Both the position numbers and the translations under genes were made by a program. A stretch of DNA of 64,000 nt from Parvibaculaceae bacterium Mf 1.05b.01 (GTDB lineage Bacteria > Pseudomonadota > Alphaproteobacteria > Parvibaculales > Parvibaculaceae). The notes beneath the pieces are model-generated. The model saw nothing but the letters and a program-made list of their open reading frames with translations, was not told the DNA's origin and made no database searches. Position 1 is the stretch's first letter, and every line of letters starts with the position of its first letter. The stretch is from the NCBI GenBank assembly GCA_000509225.1, contig BAOK01000001.1, forward strand, positions 62,001-126,000, read 5' to 3'. Shown piece by piece: positions 1-9,347 of the stretch.

Positions 1-295
1 CACTGATAGCACGCTCGGCTAAAATGCTCGCTGAATCGAGCCGACCCATCGCTGCCATCCATTTTGATTTGTCACACGTGGCGAGTGCTGCGTCGGCGTC
101 CTGGACGGCTTGAGTCAGGTTTTCTGCACGCACGCTGTTGTGAAGCATGAGACCGGAATTCCCAACCTCGAACTGTGGGAGCGCCGGATTGTGACTGTTA
201 TCGACAGCGTTAGCCGCTGGCACGGAAAGCGATAGTGCGAAAGCGACAACGGTTGCGATGGGCGCAACTCTGCGGATTAGTTTGAGACGGACCAT
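1..295 (-). CDS. Exported protein of unknown function (3' part outside window)
   Basis: Partial gene: the start codon is at 295 and the reading frame runs off the left edge. The first ~29 residues form a clear Sec signal peptide (basic start MVRLKLIRR, hydrophobic core, A-N-A before a V-D cleavage site). The mature part has a motif DAALATCDKSKW that resembles TAIAACDSETF in the 439-residue exported protein at 4797-6116, so the two are probably paralogues. An AGGGG ribosome-binding site lies 7 bases before the ATG, inside a strong inverted repeat (301-345). Function is unknown; by analogy it may be an outer-membrane protein. Confidence 0.7.
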   Translation of the reverse strand, partial: MVRLKLIRRVAPIATVVAFALSLSVPAANAVDNSHNPALPQFEVGNSGLMLHNSVRAENLTQAVQDADAALATCDKSKWMAAMGRLDSASILAERAIS

Positions 296-300
296 GTGAA

Positions 301-345
301 ACCCCTGTTGTGACGCCCTTGAGGGCGCTGACCTGAGACAGGGGT
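301..345 (-). promoter_or_regulatory. Leader hairpin that would hide the ribosome-binding site
   Basis: Nested inverted repeat in the leader of the gene starting at 295. The outer arms are ACCCCTGT (301-308) and ACAGGGGT (338-345); the inner arms are CGCCCT and AGGGCG around a 2-base centre (314-327). Read on the minus strand, the AGGGG ribosome-binding site is the 3' arm of the outer stem. Folding would mask it. The regulatory role is inferred; only the base pairing is seen. Confidence 0.5.
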
Positions 346-387
346 CAAACCTACGGAGCGAAAATCAGTGGTTCGTCATACATTTGT

Positions 388-1461
388 ATGAGGCGGTGGC
401 ATGTTTTAGCCTTTACTCCCAATAGCGTCGGGGATGAGGAGGGTGTTCTGGATCAGACCGTGTATGAAGAAGCGCCGAGCTGGCGACCCCAGGTGAACGC
501 TGCGAGCCTGCGTGCGCGGTTTTGGATTGGTCTCGTTCAAACGATCAATAAGCTCTTGCGAAAATCCGTTGGTGCTGAAGGTGCAGAAAAGAAGCCCTTC
601 GACGTGATCACCGCGCGTAAGCGGGTGAAATTTCTTGAGAATATTATTGCCATGGTTCCGTCGAACGCGACCTTTGAAGATGCCATGGGCGCGCCGGTTG
701 CGGGACCTTGGGTGCGTATTGAGAGGACAGCCCAGCCTCGCACACTACTCTACGTCCATGGGGGCTCGTTTATGCTGGAGCGTTCCGGTGTTCATGACGC
801 CCTGATTGCCAATATCTGCAAAGAGGCCGATGCAGCAGCGTTTGTGCTGGATTATCGACTGGCGCCGGAAAACCCCTTTCCGGCTGGAATTGACGATGTA
901 AAAGCAGCCTATCGATGGCTGCTTGGTGAAGGCACGCCGCCTGAGACTCTGGGTGTGGTGGCGGATTCTGCCGGCGGCGGGTTGGCACTGGCTGCTCTTA
1001 TTGCACTCCGTGACGAAGGAGTGGCGATGCCTGGGGCTATGGTGCTGCTCGGCCCCTGGGTAGACATGACGCTTTCGGGAAATTCGATTTTGAGCAATCT
1101 GGAGAACGATCCCATGGTGAGTTCTCTGGAAGGGCTTAACATGTGCTCCAGGCTCTATCTGCAGGGGCACTCCCCGACTGATCCATTGGCATCGCCTTTG
1201 TTTGCAGATCTTGCGGGTTTGCCGCCAACTCTTATTCATGTCGGCGCGCCGGAAATCCTGCGTGATGATTCCACTCGGCTTGCGACACGCCTTCGCGCGG
1301 CTGGAGTGGAGGCGTGGTGCGATGTCTATCCGCGTATGCCACATGTCTGGCATCGATTGGGCCCGTTGCTGCCAGAGACAAAGCGCTCCATCAAAGAGAT
1401 TGGTGATTTTCTCCGCGAGATGCTTCCGGGACGGAGCGAAGACAGAAGGCGGGTCGGCTAG
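388..1461 (+). CDS. Alpha/beta-hydrolase, hormone-sensitive-lipase (family IV) type esterase
   Basis: Predicted carboxylesterase/lipase acting on short acyl esters. It shows the family's oxyanion motif HGGS (residues ~128-131) and the nucleophile elbow ADSAGGG (~191-197). A C-terminal catalytic His in a PHVWHRL-like context and an acidic residue at the GAPEILRDD turn complete a plausible triad. The length of 357 residues is slightly above the usual 300-330 because of an N-terminal extension. No good ribosome-binding site precedes the ATG at 388, so the true start is uncertain. It ends 4 bases before the LuxR-type regulator gene at 1466, which suggests co-transcription. The natural substrate is unknown. 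Confidence 0.75.
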   Translation: MRRWHVLAFTPNSVGDEEGVLDQTVYEEAPSWRPQVNAASLRARFWIGLVQTINKLLRKSVGAEGAEKKPFDVITARKRVKFLENIIAMVPSNATFEDAMGAPVAGPWVRIERTAQPRTLLYVHGGSFMLERSGVHDALIANICKEADAAAFVLDYRLAPENPFPAGIDDVKAAYRWLLGEGTPPETLGVVADSAGGGLALAALIALRDEGVAMPGAMVLLGPWVDMTLSGNSILSNLENDPMVSSLEGLNMCSRLYLQGHSPTDPLASPLFADLAGLPPTLIHVGAPEILRDDSTRLATRLRAAGVEAWCDVYPRMPHVWHRLGPLLPETKRSIKEIGDFLREMLPGRSEDRRRVG

Positions 1462-1465
1462 CGCC

Positions 1466-1912
1466 ATGGCAGACAAAAGCACCAAAGACCGGCGCCACAG
1501 GGACCGACTAAGTGCGCGGGTTTGGCCGGGTATTCATGAAGGGTTGGTGCCTGAAACTGATCGCCGCCTCTCCGAAATCATGGATTGGGCTGCTAACAAT
1601 GGTGAAGACTGGATCTTCGAATTTCTGAATGCCCGGTCAAAGGCCATTCAGGAGAATGACCCGGATGCTCTTGTTGGAAAAATTCCACCGGAGGACTTTC
1701 TGGCCGTGCGATTTGATCTCACTTCGGCGCAGGCGCGCGTGCTCTGTGCGTTTCTCAGTGGGCAAACATTGCAGGAAATTGCGGATAGCCAGGGTGTCAC
1801 CATCAATACGGTGCGTACCCATTTCGTTCAGGTGCGTGGAAAGCTCGGTGCGCGCGATCAGGCAGATGTCGTGCGCATTGCACTGCTCGGAAATGACGAA
1901 GGCCGCGCCTGA
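1466..1912 (+). CDS. LuxR-type HTH transcriptional regulator, no sensor domain
   Basis: A 148-residue DNA-binding protein. Residues ~84-143 form a GerE/LuxR helix-turn-helix: FDLTSAQARVL, then ADSQGVTINTVRTH as the recognition helix region, and an end reading ARDQADVVRIALLG. The N-terminal ~80 residues match no sensor that I recognise. The ATG at 1466 was chosen because it follows the esterase stop by 4 bases; a longer in-frame extension upstream overlaps the esterase and is unlikely. The last 25 codons and the following hairpin recur in degenerate form at 4683-4773. It probably regulates neighbours, but the target is not evident. Confidence 0.75.
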   Translation: MADKSTKDRRHRDRLSARVWPGIHEGLVPETDRRLSEIMDWAANNGEDWIFEFLNARSKAIQENDPDALVGKIPPEDFLAVRFDLTSAQARVLCAFLSGQTLQEIADSQGVTINTVRTHFVQVRGKLGARDQADVVRIALLGNDEGRA

Positions 1913-1925
1913 GAGGCGCGACCTT
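1899..1925 (+). terminator. Terminator-like hairpin overlapping the LuxR gene stop
   Basis: 11-bp arms AAGGCCGCGCC and GGCGCGACCTT with one mismatch and a 5-base loop containing the TGA stop. No long T-run follows. The same structure follows the LuxR remnant at 4747-4773, so it was duplicated with the coding end. Confidence 0.45.
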
Positions 1926-1985
1926 CTTGCCCGTGCGAGGTTCAGGCTAAGTGTTGCCCACCTGAGTTGGCAATCTCATGCCACT

Positions 1986-4076
1986 TCAGAGTTTTGCGCG
2001 AATGAAGAAGAGGGCACTCGCACCAGGTTCAAGAATATCGTCTTTCTTGAACGACACGTGGTTGCGAATGTCATCATCCAGCAGGTTTGTGCCAACCACG
2101 CCCAGTTCGATCTCGCGATCTGAGTCAGGCAGGAAGAAGGTGTAGGTCGCTTCCGCCCGCAGGTCTGTGTACCCGTTGGTGCGTGTTTCGTTGATGGCGA
2201 CATCGTCCTGTTCATCCGCTCTCAAGAAACTGATGCGACTGAACAGATTTTCGTTTTCAAAGAAAACACCTGCGCCATAGCGGGGCGGGGTGATGCGAGG
2301 CACATTGCCGCCTGCATCCAGTTTGCCGCGGACATAGTCGAAGCGGCCGTCAAAGCCCAGACGTCCATCGGCCAGATCAAACGCTGACCAGCGTGCGGCG
2401 AATTCAGCGCCGTGGAAATCTGCGTCGGATTGACGATAGGCGATCTGGGTCAACTCATCCTCAACACCTGCTGCGCCGTCAACGCCACATGTGTCAAATT
2501 CTTCGCCACAAACAAAGCCTGTGTTTTGTTTGAAGATGAAGTCGCTGAACGATGTGTAGAAGAGATTGGCTTCCAGTGACAGATCGCCTGTGTTTCGTGC
2601 CAGGCTCAGGTCGAAAGAAGTTGCGCTCTCTTTGCCGAGCGTTGGGTCGCCAACCTCAAAGGTTTCCGTGGCCTCGTGCGGACCTTTGGCAAACAGCTCT
2701 AACAGATCAGGGGCCCGCTCAACATATTGCGCGTTGAGACCCAGGCTGATGTCGTCTGTTACGTCGAAGACCAGTCCGGCAGCGCCACTGATCGGTGTGA
2801 AGTCAAGCGACCGGCGGCTGCCAAAGTCTGCAAGCTCCTGACCCGGCAAGGTCACACCTTGAAGTGTGGGCGGTGCTACCCCCAATCCTTCGAGTTCAAC
2901 CTGTTCAATGCGCCCAGAAACCTGGAGCCGAAGCGCCGGGTTGATCTTCCATTCTTCAAAAAGGAAGGCAGCGAGGCTGTCGCGGGTTGAGGGGGCAATA
3001 AGTTCGCCGCCTTCACCGATGGCGCTCAGGTCGCGGGTCGATGCCTGGACGCCCCAGGCACCTTCCACATTGCCGATTGCGCGGTGAAGAACTTCCAGGC
3101 GTCCTTCCCGTTCCTCATTGTCGAACCGGGAGCCGATTGTGCCGGCGACTTTTGAGACTTCATCATGGGTATAGTCGGAATAGCCAATGTCCGCATTGAG
3201 GCCCGTGAAGAAGCCGCCCAGTTCTTCAAGACGGGCGGAGGCTGCATATCGTGTCTGTTCCAGGTCGATGGCGAGGCGGTTTGCTGCCGCTTCGGCACCC
3301 GGCACCCGATAGTCACTGTCATATTGCGTCACGGAGACACCAACATGGCCGTTTGGCAGGAGGTAGCTAATGCCTGCGGAAAGGCCATTTGTTTCAGCGG
3401 CGCTGTTTGCCTGCGTGCCTTGCGGTGTTGAATAGTCATCTGCTGAGCGCGCAAAGGCATCAATATGCACCGCGATCGGTCCTGCGCCCACATCAACAGA
3501 TCCCCGGCCCATGAGGCCACTATCGGCAGTTGTTGTGTTTGCCTCAATCTCGGCTTCAAAACCGCCGTCCGGTGCTCTGGTGGGAATACGGTTGTTCAGA
3601 ACACTCACAAGGCCCCCAATGGCCTCGCTGCCATAGCGGAGTGCGGCAGGGCCGCGGATGATTTCAATCCGTTCAGCAGCCGAGGGATCAATGGGAATGC
3701 CATGGTCTTCACTAATCGCAGACACGTCATGAGCGCCCAGACCGTTTTCCTGAACACGAACACGCGAATTGTCGAGACCGCGAATGATGGGGCGGCTTGC
3801 ACCTCTGGCAAACGAGGATTGTGCCACACCTGGCTCCGCGCCGAGCAGACCACCGAGTGTTGACGCGCCGCTGCGGGATATTTCTTCTTTGCCAATGATT
3901 GTAATCGGTTGTGCCAGCTCGGCGGTGGTGCGTGCGAGCGGCGATGCAGTGATGACGATAGATGGTGCGCTTACCGGTTCGGCATTTGCGCCGATCGGAA
4001 AGGCGAGAGATGCGCAGGCGAGGAGCGCTGCCCCTCGCTTTAGGTTTCTGTGTTTTGACGCGTAGGCGTGTTTCAT
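1986..4076 (-). CDS. znuD: TonB-dependent outer-membrane receptor, ZnuD-like (zinc)
   Basis: A 696-residue outer-membrane active transporter driven by TonB. After a signal peptide ending near A-N-A (residue ~32) come a TonB-box-like stretch (SIVITASPL), a plug domain (IRGLDNSRVRV, IEIIRGPAALRYGSEAIGG) and a 22-strand-type barrel ending in the conserved C-terminal dyad region (FFIRAKL). The motif FAKGPHEATETFEVGD is typical of the ZnuD family. The start at 4076 is preferred over 4097 because AGGGGG lies 6 bases upstream of it. It lies 91 bases downstream of a Zur-type gene on the same strand, which supports zinc as the substrate. It lacks the His-rich loops of Neisseria ZnuD, so another metal or a metallophore complex remains possible. 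Confidence 0.8.
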   Translation of the reverse strand: MKHAYASKHRNLKRGAALLACASLAFPIGANAEPVSAPSIVITASPLARTTAELAQPITIIGKEEISRSGASTLGGLLGAEPGVAQSSFARGASRPIIRGLDNSRVRVQENGLGAHDVSAISEDHGIPIDPSAAERIEIIRGPAALRYGSEAIGGLVSVLNNRIPTRAPDGGFEAEIEANTTTADSGLMGRGSVDVGAGPIAVHIDAFARSADDYSTPQGTQANSAAETNGLSAGISYLLPNGHVGVSVTQYDSDYRVPGAEAAANRLAIDLEQTRYAASARLEELGGFFTGLNADIGYSDYTHDEVSKVAGTIGSRFDNEEREGRLEVLHRAIGNVEGAWGVQASTRDLSAIGEGGELIAPSTRDSLAAFLFEEWKINPALRLQVSGRIEQVELEGLGVAPPTLQGVTLPGQELADFGSRRSLDFTPISGAAGLVFDVTDDISLGLNAQYVERAPDLLELFAKGPHEATETFEVGDPTLGKESATSFDLSLARNTGDLSLEANLFYTSFSDFIFKQNTGFVCGEEFDTCGVDGAAGVEDELTQIAYRQSDADFHGAEFAARWSAFDLADGRLGFDGRFDYVRGKLDAGGNVPRITPPRYGAGVFFENENLFSRISFLRADEQDDVAINETRTNGYTDLRAEATYTFFLPDSDREIELGVVGTNLLDDDIRNHVSFKKDDILEPGASALFFIRAKL

Positions 4077-4082
4077 CGGTAC

Positions 4083-4123
4083 CCCCTGTTGTGACATGCG
4101 AGTTCGTGTCCCCGTTAAGGGGA
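4083..4123 (-). promoter_or_regulatory. znuD leader with CCCC/GGGG hairpin and shared RBS block
   Basis: The block CCCCTGTTGTGAC (4083-4095) is identical to 302-314 in the leader of the exported-protein gene at the left edge. On the minus strand it supplies the AGGGG ribosome-binding site. A short inverted repeat TCCCC-GTTAA-GGGGA (4109-4123) lies just upstream in the transcript. Its CCCC could pair either locally or with the ribosome-binding site. The function is inferred. Confidence 0.35.
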
Positions 4124-4167
4124 TGGTTCAAATTCAGAGCTGCGGGCTAGCCGCTTAAGTCAGACCG

Positions 4168-4554
4168 TCATGCTGGTCTGCACTCGGCACAAAGGCCGAG
4201 AATTTCAAATGTCTTTTGGGACGGCATGAAGCCGGTCTTCTTTTTCCAGTCGCCAAGCAAATTGCAGAGCTGGTGGTCTTCAATTTCCTGTACTTGATTG
4301 CAGTCGCTGCAGACTGCGAAAACAGTCTCGTGGTGGTGGTGATGTCCGTCACAGGGAACAAACGCTTTGAGGCTTTCAATGCGATGCACCCGACCTTCCG
4401 CGCTTAATCTGTCCAGCGCGCGGTAGATGGCCGGTGGCTTGGGCTTTGGGCCTTCAGGCAGCAAATCGAGCAGGTCATAGGCAGATAGCGGCTGATCGGC
4501 TGTCTTCATAGCCTCGATCAGCTGTTCGTCATTGATGGTTCGCGCACGCGCCAT
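4168..4554 (-). CDS. zur: Fur-family regulator, zinc uptake regulator Zur type
   Basis: A 128-residue Fur-superfamily repressor. The N-terminal winged helix includes PPAIYRALDRLSAEGRVHRI. The C-terminal metal domain has a run of five His (residues 71-75), the Cys pair C82-x2-C85 and the Cys pair C122-x2-C125, the structural zinc ligands of Fur/Zur proteins. The Zur assignment rests on the znuD-like gene directly downstream. The start at 4554 follows a strong GGAGG five bases upstream; an ATG four codons earlier lacks this. A palindrome at 4570-4588 covers its upstream region. A hairpin CAGACC/GGTCTG (4161-4180) spans the stop and could attenuate read-through into znuD. Confidence 0.85.
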   Translation of the reverse strand: MARARTINDEQLIEAMKTADQPLSAYDLLDLLPEGPKPKPPAIYRALDRLSAEGRVHRIESLKAFVPCDGHHHHHETVFAVCSDCNQVQEIEDHQLCNLLGDWKKKTGFMPSQKTFEILGLCAECRPA

Positions 4555-4569
4555 TATCGCCTCCAAAGA

Positions 4570-4588
4570 AAACGTATAACATACGTTT
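4570..4588. promoter_or_regulatory. Candidate Zur operator
   Basis: Perfect 8-bp inverted repeat AAACGTAT-AAC-ATACGTTT, starting 15 bases upstream of the zur start codon. Its position and its AT-rich palindromic form fit an autoregulatory Zur box controlling zur-znuD. The exact match to the alphaproteobacterial Zur consensus was not computed. Confidence 0.6.
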
Positions 4589-4682
4589 AGCGGCTGGGTA
4601 TTGGAGGGTCAATAGAAGAATGGGGCGCAGCCGCCAATGGCCATGCTTTTTTCACGCAAACCAGGGTACTGCACAGATGTTG

Positions 4683-4760
4683 TATGGAAAGCCCAGCGCG
4701 CGAGATCAGGCAGATTGTGTGCGGATTGGCTTGTTGGGAAGTGACGAAGGCCGCGCCTGA
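4683..4760 (+). pseudogene. Remnant of a LuxR-type regulator gene (C-terminal 25 codons)
   Basis: In frame this reads YGKPSARDQADCVRIGLLG then SDEGRA and a TGA stop, against RGKLGARDQADVVRIALLG then NDEGRA in the intact gene (1835-1912). Nucleotide identity extends through the stop into the hairpin GCGCGACCTT. No matching HTH can be read upstream, so only the tail is preserved. It is interpreted as the decayed end of a duplicated LuxR gene lying between zur and the exported-protein gene. Confidence 0.75.
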
Positions 4761-4773
4761 AAAGCGCGACCTT
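4747..4773 (+). terminator. Hairpin after LuxR remnant, copy of 1899-1925
   Basis: Arms AAGGCCGCGC and GCGCGACCTT separated by CTGAAAA, which contains the remnant's stop. It may now serve as a weak terminator for the convergent exported-protein gene ending at 4797. Confidence 0.35.
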
Positions 4774-4796
4774 CCGCTGTGCATGTTTGTTTCGAT

Positions 4797-6116
4797 CTAG
4801 AACCGGAAGCTCGCTCTGATAGAGCCAACCACTGCGTCACCATCATCAAAAGTTAAGCGCGACGCGTTGGTGCCGTCTCGTTCAACAACCGGCAGGTTTT
4901 CCTGGTAGATGTAGGTCGCGTCAATTGAGAGCTTGAACGGCGACTTATCATTCCCAAAGGTGAAGCCGGCCCAGGCGCGGCCGCCATAGGTTGTCTCATC
5001 ATTGCTGAGTGAGGCCTGACTGTCTGCAACGCCGGTGAAGGACAGCCTGTCTGTTCCCTTGCCATCGTTGGAATCGATGGATACCAGCCCGCCGCCATGC
5101 ACCGAGACCCGCCCCAGGTCTTTTTCCAAATCGACGCCGATAAAACCGCTCAATGTATCAACATAGACAGCTGTGTTGTAGGCGAAGTTACGTCCGAACC
5201 CGGGGATGGACCCAGTGAAGCGGCTCATGCTTTCCTGTTCGCTGTAGGCGACACCGACAAACGGTGTGACTTTGACCTCTCCACAATCAAATGGCAGCCC
5301 GCCCTTGGCGTAGAAGCTGTCCCACTCGGCATCTACCTCATAGGTTGCGTTTTGAACAACATTCAAACCGCCAGCACTGACCAGGGCAAAGCCAGACGCT
5401 CCGCCGAGAGGACCTGGGATTAAGAGCCCATCACCGGCGGGATCAATCGTCTGGGCTGTGCCGGATGCATTGGCGGTGGTTCTGAGATAGCCAAAGGCGG
5501 TCCAAAAGCCTTGCGATCCAAAAATACCGTGACCCGGAAAAAAGACGGAGCCATCCAACGACGCGCCGGTTGTGCGGGCTTCTTCTTCACCCACAGCAAC
5601 ACCAATTGTTTGTGCCAGTGTTACTGCGTTCTCGAAGCCAAGGAATGCCTGGTGGGGCAGATTGAGAATGCCTGCGAAGAAACTCGCGCCCGCCCCGAAG
5701 ATGGCGGCGTCGGATTGCTCAGGCTTGTCGCAGGCGGCACGCCATTCTCTGTAGAGGTCTGATGTGAGGAACCCAAGCGCGTCTGCGTCTTTCTCGTCCT
5801 GACTTTCAAACAAGGCGTCTATCAATTGGCCTGCAATTGGGTCCTGGTCCCTTGCCTTCACCTCACTGCTCGATTTTTCACTGTAGATGGCCTGGATCGC
5901 GGAATTGAATGTTTCGCTGTCGCATGCAGCGATAGCGGTTCGCGCACGCACCACTTGAGAATTTACTCTTTCGGCGGCGTTTCCATCGAAGAGACCATGC
6001 TCGGTTCCAGCAATTGGAAAGCTGGGCGTCGTTGCGCTGTTGTCCGCATGGGCTGCTGTGCCCATAAAAACGGGTAGAAAAAGTGCCGCTGAAGCCCATA
6101 GATATATCGTGCGCAT
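4797..6116 (-). CDS. Exported protein, probable outer-membrane beta-barrel
   Basis: A 439-residue protein with a Sec signal peptide (MRTIYLWASAALFLPVF, then A-H-A before D-N-S). Residues ~30-160 are helical-looking, with TAIAACDSETF and a few Cys. From ~190 on, alternating aromatic/polar strands suggest a beta-barrel (e.g. TTYGGRAWAGFTFGN, SIDATYIYQENLP), and the chain ends in the typical terminal Phe (SIRASFRF). Function is unknown. It is related in its first part to the truncated gene at 1-295. The leader also contains a CCCCAT/ATGGGG hairpin followed by an AGGGG ribosome-binding site. Neighbouring zur-znuD and LuxR genes suggest a stress- or nutrient-linked surface role (inference). Confidence 0.65.
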   Translation of the reverse strand: MRTIYLWASAALFLPVFMGTAAHADNSATTPSFPIAGTEHGLFDGNAAERVNSQVVRARTAIAACDSETFNSAIQAIYSEKSSSEVKARDQDPIAGQLIDALFESQDEKDADALGFLTSDLYREWRAACDKPEQSDAAIFGAGASFFAGILNLPHQAFLGFENAVTLAQTIGVAVGEEEARTTGASLDGSVFFPGHGIFGSQGFWTAFGYLRTTANASGTAQTIDPAGDGLLIPGPLGGASGFALVSAGGLNVVQNATYEVDAEWDSFYAKGGLPFDCGEVKVTPFVGVAYSEQESMSRFTGSIPGFGRNFAYNTAVYVDTLSGFIGVDLEKDLGRVSVHGGGLVSIDSNDGKGTDRLSFTGVADSQASLSNDETTYGGRAWAGFTFGNDKSPFKLSIDATYIYQENLPVVERDGTNASRLTFDDGDAVVGSIRASFRF

Positions 6117-6224
6117 TGTGCCGTCCCCTTACTGTTTGACCTGTGTTCAATCAAGCAAGGCGCTGTTGTTTCTGTCCCCATCCAATTGAATGGGGAAAGC
6201 AAAGTTTTGGCGAAAAAGTGCGCT

Positions 6225-7346
6225 TTAAAGGCCGTTCACACGTCCCAGAACAATTCGGACAATGTCTGCCTGGGTATGGGCGCCGAGTTTTGTACGGATG
6301 GTGCCGAAGTGCCACCGGACTGTGTTGAGGCTCAAGTCCCGGTCGGACGCAAGACGCTTGAGATCGCTCCCCTGGGCGAACGCGACCGCGAGGCTTGCCT
6401 CTGTCGGCGTCAGATCAAAGAGTTCCATCAACGCTGCTTTGGCGTGACTTGGAACTTGGGGATCTGCATTGATCATTAGGAGAATTGCCTGGGCTTCCTC
6501 GTCCCGCGTGTTGGGCTCCCTGAGCAGGGGTGTTGCACGGGCAAGGAGCGATCCGCCACCGGGACGTGAAACTCTTATGAGAGGTGGTGGTGTGACACCG
6601 TCCTGACCGACTGTTGCAGCCAATGACAGCCCCTCGTTCAGGGCTTTTTGTTCTTCAGGTCGCGCGGTTCGCAAATACCTCCCTGACAAAATGAGGCCGT
6701 CGGGCGTGGCCAGGAGTTTTTCCGCCGCCTGGTTGGCAAATAATACTTCTCCCGACCTTGTTAGCGTGAGCGCGGGTGAGGGGAGGGCATCCAGTGTCGC
6801 TGCCAGCGTTGCGTTTTTCTGTCGCTGGACGAGGAGTGTTTCGGTGGTTTCATGCGCTGCTTTTAGGTGCGGCATCAGCTGGCGGAGCATTGCAATGTCG
6901 GAGTCGTCCACATGGCCTTGTTGTCTGCTGCGTTGAATAGCGAAGGTGATGCGTCGTTGGGAGTTGTTGATCAGATTTGCGGAGAGGAAGTAGCGCAAGC
7001 CTGATGGAGCGAGGAAGTCCTGATAGTACTCGTCCCGATCAAGATCCTTTTCTGAGCCAATCGTTCGATCAAAGAAGATGGTGCCTTCTGGCGCGCGACT
7101 GGAAAATTTCACCCGCGGATTGATGGCGTAGAAATGTCGCTGATAATTGTTTCGGCTGGTCGGATTGAGTATCCCTGAGTCTCTGCTGCCAAGGGTGTTG
7201 GATTTTTTGTCGACGGCTTCAAACAGGGCACCTGCGCCGTTCATGCCTGTAGCAATCTGCTGAAGGGCGTCAGGCCAGCGTTCGGGTTCACCTACAGCAC
7301 TGTAGATAGTGTTCACCAAGCGCAACAAATTTTCTGACCGAGCCAT
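6225..7346 (-). CDS. LuxR-type regulator with central PAS-like domain
   Basis: A 373-residue transcriptional regulator. An N-terminal ~180 residues (GEPERWPDALQQIA, then a region seen in many alphaproteobacterial LuxR solos) is followed by a PAS-like segment (ALPSPALTLTRSGEVLFAN, ~190-270). The C-terminal HTH spans ~305-370 (FDLTPTEASLAVAFAQGSDL, SLNTVRWHFGTIRTKLGAH, then QADIVRIVLG). The HTH end resembles that of the 148-residue regulator at 1466-1912 and its remnant at 4683. It is transcribed toward the exported-protein gene at 4797-6116 with a 108-base gap, so co-regulation is plausible. No cognate signal synthase is present. Confidence 0.8.
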   Translation of the reverse strand: MARSENLLRLVNTIYSAVGEPERWPDALQQIATGMNGAGALFEAVDKKSNTLGSRDSGILNPTSRNNYQRHFYAINPRVKFSSRAPEGTIFFDRTIGSEKDLDRDEYYQDFLAPSGLRYFLSANLINNSQRRITFAIQRSRQQGHVDDSDIAMLRQLMPHLKAAHETTETLLVQRQKNATLAATLDALPSPALTLTRSGEVLFANQAAEKLLATPDGLILSGRYLRTARPEEQKALNEGLSLAATVGQDGVTPPPLIRVSRPGGGSLLARATPLLREPNTRDEEAQAILLMINADPQVPSHAKAALMELFDLTPTEASLAVAFAQGSDLKRLASDRDLSLNTVRWHFGTIRTKLGAHTQADIVRIVLGRVNGL

Positions 7347-7428
7347 GTCGATAGACTTGTCGATCTATGGGCGCAGGTCAATCTGTGTGCTGATATTGAA
7401 AAGCAAACTTTTGTGAAATGTGTGCGTT

Positions 7429-8931
7429 CTATCGCGTTACATCGAGACCGAGGTCGCGGACTTTGCGATAGAGCGTAGAGCGTCCGATGCCCAGACGTCG
7501 GGCAACTTCAGACATATGGCCTTTGTACTTGTCGATGGCCATGCGGATGAGATCCGCTTCAATGTCTTCCAGCTTGCGTAGCTCACCACCGTCGTCTGTC
7601 ACCGTGATGCCTTCACCGAAGGTAGAGCGGGCAAATGCTGCAATCCCGTTTGATGAGGTCACTGGATCGCCTGTGATCATGGCAGGTTGGGGTTCCGCTT
7701 GGACGGTCGGCGATGCTGGAGCTGTTGCCACGATCGGGTCATATCCCTCGACCTGGGCGGCGATCTGCGGGAAGTCGGCAATGGTCAGCATGTCACCATC
7801 ACACAAGACGATGGCACGGAAGACAGTGTTTTCGAGCTGGCGCACATTGCCGGGCCAATCATAGGCGGCCAACATGCCCATGGCATCGGATGCGACACCG
7901 GCGATTTTTTTGCCTTCTTCAGCGGCAATGCGCTGAACGAAATGGGTGACGAGGTCAGGCACATCTTCTTTGCGGTCGCGCACCGGCGGCAGGAAGATTG
8001 GGAAGACGTTTAGTCGGTAATAGAGGTCTTCACGGAAGCGCCCGTCAGTCACCATCTGGATGAGGTCACGGTTGGTCGCTGAAATGAGGCGAATGTCGAC
8101 TTTCACCGGGCGCTTGGCGCCAACAGGGTCTACTTCGCCTTCTTGGATGGCGCGGAGCAGCTTCACCTGCATATCGAGCGGCAGTTCGCCGATCTCGTCC
8201 AGGAAGAGAGTGCCGCCGCTGGCTTCGACAAATTTACCGGCATGTTTTTCAGAGGCCCCTGTGAACGCGCCTTTTTCATGGCCGAAGAGAATGCTCTCAA
8301 TGAGGTTTTCCGGGATGGCCCCACAATTGACCGTAATGAGGGGGCCGCCGGCCCGATCGCTTTCGCCCTGAATGGCGCTGGCGATCAATTCCTTCCCAAC
8401 ACCACTTTCGCCCTCAATAAGAACGGGAATGTTGGATTGTGCGGCTCGTCGCCCCAGCTTAAGCACGGAGCTCATGGTGGGGGCGCCGGCTATAATATCG
8501 TCAAAGGTCAACTGGCCTTTGGCTTTCTTCTTGAGCCTGTTCACTTCGCCTGCAAGTGCTGTCACCTTCAGCGCATTGCGAATAGAGACATAGAGCCGCT
8601 CTGGGCTCACCGGCTTCATGACAAAGTCATCTGCACCGGCCCGCATCGCCTTCACGACCGTCTCTACACCTGCCTGCGCCGTCAAAACGATGACTGGCAG
8701 GTCACTGTGGGTTGGGGCGATGGCTTCGAGCACTTCCATGCCATCCATGCCTGGCATCACCAGGTCGAGGATCATGCAGGAAATGTCCTTGCCATTGGGG
8801 CCATTGAGGATATCGAGAGCTGGATCGCCCCCGTCTGCGCTCACTACGCGGTAGCCATCACGGCTGACGACTTCTTCCAGAATACGCCGCTGTGCTGGGT
8901 CATCATCGACGACCAATACCGTTTGAGCCAT
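7429..8931 (-). CDS. Sigma-54-dependent response regulator (NtrC family, TacA-like)
   Basis: A 500-residue two-component activator of RpoN promoters. The receiver domain (1-125) has the phospho-acceptor D56 and conserved K106. The AAA+ domain has Walker A GESGVGKE (174-181), the sigma-54 contact loop GAFTGA (221-226) and Walker B LFLDEIGE (242-249). A Fis-type HTH ends the protein (MSEVARRLGIGRSTLYRKVR). The start at 8931 follows GAGGT four bases upstream; an upstream in-frame ATG has no support. No histidine kinase is adjacent, so it is an orphan. The receiver start (VDDDPAQRR) resembles Caulobacter TacA, the regulator of stalk and polarity genes, but orthology is not proven. Confidence 0.85.
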   Translation of the reverse strand: MAQTVLVVDDDPAQRRILEEVVSRDGYRVVSADGGDPALDILNGPNGKDISCMILDLVMPGMDGMEVLEAIAPTHSDLPVIVLTAQAGVETVVKAMRAGADDFVMKPVSPERLYVSIRNALKVTALAGEVNRLKKKAKGQLTFDDIIAGAPTMSSVLKLGRRAAQSNIPVLIEGESGVGKELIASAIQGESDRAGGPLITVNCGAIPENLIESILFGHEKGAFTGASEKHAGKFVEASGGTLFLDEIGELPLDMQVKLLRAIQEGEVDPVGAKRPVKVDIRLISATNRDLIQMVTDGRFREDLYYRLNVFPIFLPPVRDRKEDVPDLVTHFVQRIAAEEGKKIAGVASDAMGMLAAYDWPGNVRQLENTVFRAIVLCDGDMLTIADFPQIAAQVEGYDPIVATAPASPTVQAEPQPAMITGDPVTSSNGIAAFARSTFGEGITVTDDGGELRKLEDIEADLIRMAIDKYKGHMSEVARRLGIGRSTLYRKVRDLGLDVTR

Positions 8932-9347
8932 GCCTACCTCTAGTTCCCCTGCCGGTCCGCTTAAGGCCGCGGGCGACGAATCACAAAACGAGGCCACTGA
9001 GATAGGAAACGAGTGTTCGCGCCCCTCAGCGGCTGTGACCCAATATGGGGCAGACAGGTAAAGGCGGGTTTAAAGAGGGGGAGATTCGATTGTTTCGTGC
9101 CCGTTTTTTTCGCTGATCCCCGCCAATAATGGTTAATGTATGTGCGGGGTGCGTAAAACTGTCACATTTTGGTCCATAGGTGTTGCGGAGGGGTGACTCT
9201 GCGCTCGCAATTAAGGCTAAAACCTGAAACCACCTTGATGGACCCAGCCGATACGTGCGACCAATTGGTTTCATGAATGGCAGTCCGGTGGGGTCCGGGT
9301 CCTCCGTATGTACGGGGGGTGTGCTTAAAACGACGACGGAGAGTGGG
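8932..9347. other. Divergent intergenic region without recognised gene
   Basis: 416 bases between the minus-strand sigma-54 regulator and the plus-strand OmpA lipoprotein. It must hold both promoters. I see AT-rich patches around 9090-9180 but no convincing -35/-10 pair, operator or RNA gene, and the short open frames here have no ribosome-binding site. Confidence 0.4.

Follow-up and report, generated by a model that had tools for sequence, protein, structure and literature searches.

Gene fragments are commonplace in bacteria. Like other bacterial pseudogene fragments, the segment described here is the truncated and decaying copy of a gene present elsewhere in its own genome; it differs from them in that its hairpin end has apparently been kept, with paired changes in a related genome (G004). 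A narrow literature search, covering titles and the openings of abstracts, returned no named example of a gene fossil that keeps a hairpin of the opposite strand.

Two further systems are close to this locus. In PMC7566282, intrinsic terminators of E. coli are described as often bidirectional between convergent genes, and the convergent class as over-represented among the mapped intrinsic terminators of Zymomonas mobilis. With bidirectional terminators, as characterized there, the locus shares the presence of one hairpin at two convergent gene ends. Here, however, the hairpin lies partly inside the coding sequence of a LuxR-type (lux) gene, is better paired on one strand and is without a clear U-tract, and at 4746-4774 one of the two convergent genes is dead. 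The second system is given by the LuxR/GerE-type regulators (PF00196). The remnant aligns with residues 123-148 of the intact gene luxA, but it is devoid of the first 38 of the 55 residues of the GerE match and of the N-terminal part.

Genomic Context of the Lux Remnant

The window, i.e., the whole stretch of 64,000 nucleotides that was analyzed, belongs to the genome G000, which we compared with six congeners, G001 to G006. The gene order is: end of the first barrel gene, hydrolase gene, luxA, TonB receptor gene, zur-like gene, lux tail, barrel3, longer LuxR gene, and activator gene. The lux tail, barrel3 (minus strand) and the longer LuxR gene constitute a block of about 2.8 kb between zur and the activator gene. 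The individual features are as follows.

G000:C2:60970-62238 (genome match), minus strand: first beta-barrel-like gene; the window starts with its end, before the hydrolase gene
388-1461, plus strand: alpha/beta hydrolase gene (PF07859), directly upstream of luxA
1466-1912, plus strand: luxA, intact LuxR-type gene, 148 aa, GerE domain (PF00196), paralog of the remnant
1898-1926, minus strand: hairpin at the luxA end, homologous to 4746-4774; it lies 59 nt past the stop of the TonB receptor gene, which converges on it
1986-4097, minus strand: TonB-dependent receptor gene (PF00593, PF07715), convergent with luxA
4168-4566, minus strand: zur-like gene of the FUR family (PF01475), putative zur
4683-4745, plus strand: what remains of the final codons of a LuxR/GerE-type gene; 82% nucleotide identity to the luxA tail over 4685-4774
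4746-4774, minus strand: hairpin of 13 bp that pairs completely in minus-strand RNA and probably forms the 3' end of barrel3, with which the remnant is convergent; on the plus strand it holds the last codons and the stop of the remnant
4758-4760, plus strand: TGA stop of the remnant, at the hairpin loop, in a position equal to that of the luxA stop (1910-1912)
4797-6116, minus strand: barrel3, open reading frame for a predicted exported beta-barrel-like protein of 439 aa, convergent with the remnant
6225-7346, minus strand: longer, second regulator of the LuxR type (373 aa, with a GerE domain), in the same block as barrel3
7429-8997, minus strand: gene of a sigma-54-type response regulator (activator), which adjoins zur directly in congeners without the block

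No Pfam family was matched by barrel3, and the term beta-barrel-like is our own reading of its sequence. The orthologs of barrel3 and of the longer LuxR regulator in G004 are 84% and 75% identical, respectively. Upstream of zur, at 4571-4587, lies the palindrome AACGTATAACATACGTT, present too in G001 to G004, which we take to be perhaps a Zur box for autoregulation. A TTGACA-like -35 motif, which reads TTGACC in G000, is found beside the edge of the block.

Homology and Truncation of the Tail

A repeat search within the window aligned 1837-1926 with 4685-4774, free of gaps, over 90 nt and at 82% identity, with frame and stop common to both copies. Translation of 4683-4760 yields YGKPSARDQADCVRIGLLGSDEGRA and translation of the luxA end (1835-1912) yields RGKLGARDQADVVRIALLGNDEGRA, each closed by a stop codon. 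In searches against the own genome, the luxA protein matched the remnant (G000:C2:66680-66757, 73% over residues 123-148, E 3.4e-4), and the DNA of 4600-4800 matched the luxA end (E 2.2e-19). The local alignment of 4567-4796 with 1466-1985 was assessed against 1000 dinucleotide shuffles of the intergenic region: its score of 60 was reached by none of them (mean 13.1, maximum 25), and with the hairpin left out the score of 34 still exceeded all 1000 shuffles (maximum 20). A distant DNA search of the plasmid collection with 4567-4800 gave no match.

Measured against five intact lux ends in bins of 10 nt, the match amounts to 6.2-8.6 in the first 60 nt upstream of the hairpin and to 1.0-4.0 in the next 90 nt further upstream. 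The lux homology is thus sharply truncated about 60 nt upstream of the hairpin, and what is left, luxA residues 123-148, overlaps the GerE match (85-139) by the final 17 residues of the latter. As in a pseudogene, significant homology to an intact gene is found together with the loss of most of the GerE domain. Judged by its letters, 4683-4774 is evidently what survives, as a fossil, of the 3' end of a LuxR-type gene, truncated at its 5' side and decaying in its coding part. A preliminary description of this DNA had already read 4683-4760 as the luxA C-terminus with substitutions, had seen the similarity continue through stop and hairpin, and had concluded that only a decayed tail survives; the alignment and its shuffles bear this out, with the match and the hairpin reaching 4774, one base past the range first given.

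A dispersed repeat, or a chance likeness of a common terminator, was considered as another source of the similarity and rejected as exceedingly improbable. Short and weak hairpin matches do exist elsewhere in the genus, at E 0.05 or worse, but the coding part is significant when taken alone, and the strict pattern GAAGGYCGCN{4,22}GCGRCCTTC, searched without mismatch in the own genome, hits the hairpins of the tail and of luxA only (the backwards control hits once).

Age and Parentage

Of the 61 nt before the hairpin, 47 are identical to luxA in G000, and the changes relative to this own-genome luxA number 4, 4, and 6 on codon positions 1, 2, and 3, respectively. Third positions account for 6 of 14 changes against G000 luxA, 8 of 19 against G004 luxB, 10 of 16 against the lux end of G003, 10 of 18 against that of G002, and 9 of 18 against G004 luxA. 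In three of these five comparisons (those with G003, G002, and G004 luxA), third positions are in excess, as expected if the parent of the tail evolved mostly as a living gene. The same excess, together with a remnant frame that is open for 74 codons, would also suit a living small gene whose short peptide product ends with the LuxR tail. However, the history of the parent gene leads to the same expectation, the changes relative to the own luxA are spread over all three codon positions, the homology stops at about -60, and the corresponding peptide of G004 is largely different, so that we consider a living gene highly improbable. The tree of the 73-nt lux ends has no starred branch and thus does not tell which lux gene gave rise to the tail.

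Distribution of the Block among Congeners

The block is located at the same place in G000 and G004, and it is missing there in five of the six congeners (G001, G002, G003, G005, and G006). According to the match coordinates, the gap between the matches to zur and to the activator gene measures 2865 nt in G000, 2813 nt in G004, and 80 to 111 nt in the five others. Positions 4739-9000 of the window align at 77% with G004 L041 548-4822, from the hairpin on through the block, and contig C94 of G004 accordingly carries zur, a hairpin with traces of the lux tail, barrel3, and the longer LuxR gene. Among 61 genomes (the own and 60 others), a barrel3-like protein was found in 13 at E 0.001 and a luxA match in 35, the latter mostly to the DNA-binding domain alone. 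In the named genome collection, two contigs were matched by the barrel3 protein, probably C94 and C111 of G004 itself.

The barrel3 protein tree pairs G000 with G004 at 100/100. The activator-gene tree contains a G000-G004 group at 97/99, a G000-G003 group without G004 at 89/94 (not starred), and G000 with G003 at 100/99. Since this tree places G000 with G003 and leaves G004 outside, the block was probably lost more than once or exchanged. It may have been acquired a single time, with losses in G001, G002, and G003, or it may have passed from one lineage to another.

Contig C111 of G004 holds a unit of barrel, hydrolase, and lux genes twice in succession, followed by the TonB gene. In locus L016 (G004:C111:2700-10032), this tandem duplication of a three-gene unit, barrel on the minus strand and hydrolase plus LuxR gene on the plus strand, extends over 1-7333 beside the TonB gene. 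The second hydrolase-LuxR pair consists of open frames at L016 3542-4540 and 4556-5041, and hence hydrolase and lux genes do duplicate; the second LuxR gene (luxB) adjoins the TonB receptor gene, not the zur site. Two observations concern the same neighborhood. The luxA gene of G000 has a body like that of G004 luxA, and last codons and a hairpin like those of luxB, as a deletion between both would give. Compared by eye, the TonB receptor of G002 (L018 5038-7152) differs strongly over a long range from the receptors of G000, G003, and G004, while its last part looks alike, perhaps due to allele replacement.

The preliminary description had taken the tail as direct evidence of local duplication and loss, and had pointed to close relatives for an intact second LuxR gene at the syntenic site. 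Duplication as such is seen in the lux and hydrolase genes of G004. No intact LuxR gene, though, is present at the zur/barrel3 site in any of the seven genomes of the genus (the own and six congeners): G004 has a tail there as well, and five lack the insertion. The fragment may have arrived already truncated together with the block, rather than having been duplicated and lost in place.

Along this line, the tail could be a recombination scar, in which the lux end served as a homology arm in the move of the block, and exchange between lux ends could excise or re-insert such modules. The barrel-hydrolase-lux unit of G004 does sit between two lux ends, zur lies beside the activator gene in five of the seven genomes, and the G000 luxA protein, 84% identical to G004 luxA and 53% to luxB, nevertheless has a luxB-like end (EGRA, hairpin, TonB gene next). 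On the other hand, no recombination intermediate was seen among the genomes compared, and the tail offers too few positions for a tree with support. We regard the scar as possible but rather unlikely; it concerns the origin of the tail and can be compatible with a hairpin retained for its function as a 3' end.

The Further Decayed Tail of G004

At the same site in G004, the hairpin of the tail is plain, while decay of the coding tail has gone so far that it escapes a plain alignment. Direct DNA searches for the G004 lux tail did not find it. Unanchored alignments of the coding tail were not significant with two lux genes (732 and 378 of 1000 shuffles as high, respectively), and with the tail region of G000, 529 of 1000 shuffles were as high. 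In the register anchored by the hairpin, the 33 nt in front of it agree with the five intact lux ends at 17.4 positions on average; of 20000 mononucleotide shuffles, 1 did as well, and none of 39 shifted registers exceeded 11.8. Over 38 nt and 61 nt, 0 and 2 of 20000 shuffles were as high, respectively. Among the windows of both G004 stretches, 6 of 25782 (33 nt), 6 of 25762 (38 nt), and 15 of 25670 (61 nt) reached the score of the tail; the tail and the two genuine lux ends are among those counted. The last 38 nt have 22 identities with G000 luxA; when 16 kb of G000 sequence were scanned, 1 of 15963 windows did as well. The coding tail is identical to G000 luxA in 30 of 61 positions. It reads DVYLIASIINGEGRT versus DVVRIALLGNDEGRA, both followed by a stop, and in G000 and G004 alike the resemblance to lux dwindles at 50-60 nt before the hairpin. 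With good but not full certainty, we consider the G004 tail as the same fossil in a further decayed state. The G000 tail is kept much better; either the lux gene of G000 died later than that of G004, or the G000 tail was refreshed from luxA.

Pairing and Strand of the Hairpin

In luxA, the stop codon is situated at the loop of a 13-bp hairpin, as is TAA in the luxA genes of G002 and G003; in G004 luxB the stop at the hairpin is lost and the frame reads on. Six hairpins were aligned, those of luxA in G000, G002, and G003, of luxB in G004, and of the tails in G000 and G004. Standard pairs, with G.U allowed, are formed in 78 of 78 cases in the minus-strand RNA and in 69 of 78 in the plus-strand (lux) RNA, and three pairs are changed on both sides. 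All nine failures on the plus strand are A.C, i.e., G.U on the minus strand, and for this reason the RNA of the convergent gene is most likely the relevant one: by base pairing, that of the TonB receptor at luxA and that of barrel3 at the tail. The nine G.U cells are confined to four pairs and some are inherited, such that few independent events are involved and the strand evidence is fair, not overwhelming. The lux coding sequence also constrains one hairpin arm in four of the six.

The observed percentage paired was reached by 1 of 500 shuffles on the minus strand and by 1 of 500 on the plus strand, as was the covariation score on the plus strand (1 of 500). For the number of pairs changed on both sides, it is not unusual that a shuffle does as well (40 of 500 on the minus and 54 of 500 on the plus strand). 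Folding favors the minus strand in all six hairpins, with minus/plus energies of -23.8/-19.3, -21.1/-14.8, -21.8/-14.7, -18.4/-9.7, -21.5/-19.4, and -22.5/-19.0 kcal/mol; with its flanks, the G004 tail hairpin folds at -24.2 (minus) versus -12.0 kcal/mol (plus). The tail hairpin is situated 22 nt beyond the barrel3 stop in G000 and 28 nt beyond it in G004.

The preliminary description had assigned the hairpin to the LuxR gene as "its terminator". This does not agree with a pairing that is best kept on the opposite strand, that of the convergent gene. Taken together, the description is partly supported: right on homology and decay, incomplete on the persistence of the piece and on the strand of the hairpin, and unproven as to the loss of a whole gene in place.

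As with bidirectional terminators, a stable G+C-rich hairpin lies between convergent genes. Since no clear U-tract follows the hairpin at 4746-4774 on either strand, termination there is something we only infer; and since the hairpin is likewise not among the predictions of a terminator scan of 1400-7500, an end made by another route and then trimmed back as far as the hairpin is no less likely than intrinsic termination. A second kind of hairpin, GCCCGGC...GCCGGGCTTTTTG, which has a T-run, lies past the first barrel gene of G000 (L042 1917-1950) and at the luxA/barrel2 junction of G004 (L016 1945-1990), and the hairpin kind GAAGGCCGCG is found at four other lux ends. As this second kind is different and has a T-run, barrel3 carries the hairpin kind of the lux gene beside the TonB gene.

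A Retained 3' End?

Our preferred explanation, to which we assign a probability of roughly 0.68, takes the tail for a fossil of lux and its hairpin for a part retained to form the 3' end of the barrel3 message. In intact lux genes, the hairpin over the stop codon would also provide the convergent minus-strand gene with its 3' end. A lux gene, or a piece of one, beside barrel3 would have fallen out of use; its coding part would then have decayed, and the hairpin would have stayed because it still formed the 3' end of the barrel3 message, be it as a terminator or as an RNA-protecting end. Going by the sequence comparisons, the hairpin would thus end or protect the minus-strand transcript, and selection for this may explain why the piece survived.

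The simplest alternative is a plain decaying pseudogene tail without any function kept, where the hairpin is still there by chance since the loss is recent. The 47 of 61 identities before the G000 hairpin do make the decay look recent. In G004, however, where the coding part is barely recognizable, all 13 minus-strand pairs of the tail hairpin form, one of them changed on both sides, and we therefore deem mere recency unlikely.

Beyond the retained 3' end itself, we tentatively suggest that the coding end of lux is shaped by the need of the opposite gene for a 3' hairpin, the antisense element alone being preserved once lux dies, although we would not rate this as probable. If true, the size of the fossils left by the ends of such convergent gene pairs would be predictable, and barrel modules on the move would obtain their 3' ends ready-made, by reuse of lux ends. 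Where a hairpin is common to two convergent genes, a strand-specific pattern of G.U versus A.C can hint at the one it serves. The tail beside barrel3 provides a concrete and testable case for why one piece of a dead gene persists, namely that it would double as the 3' end of the message of its neighbor, and as such it may be a modest example of debris put to use.
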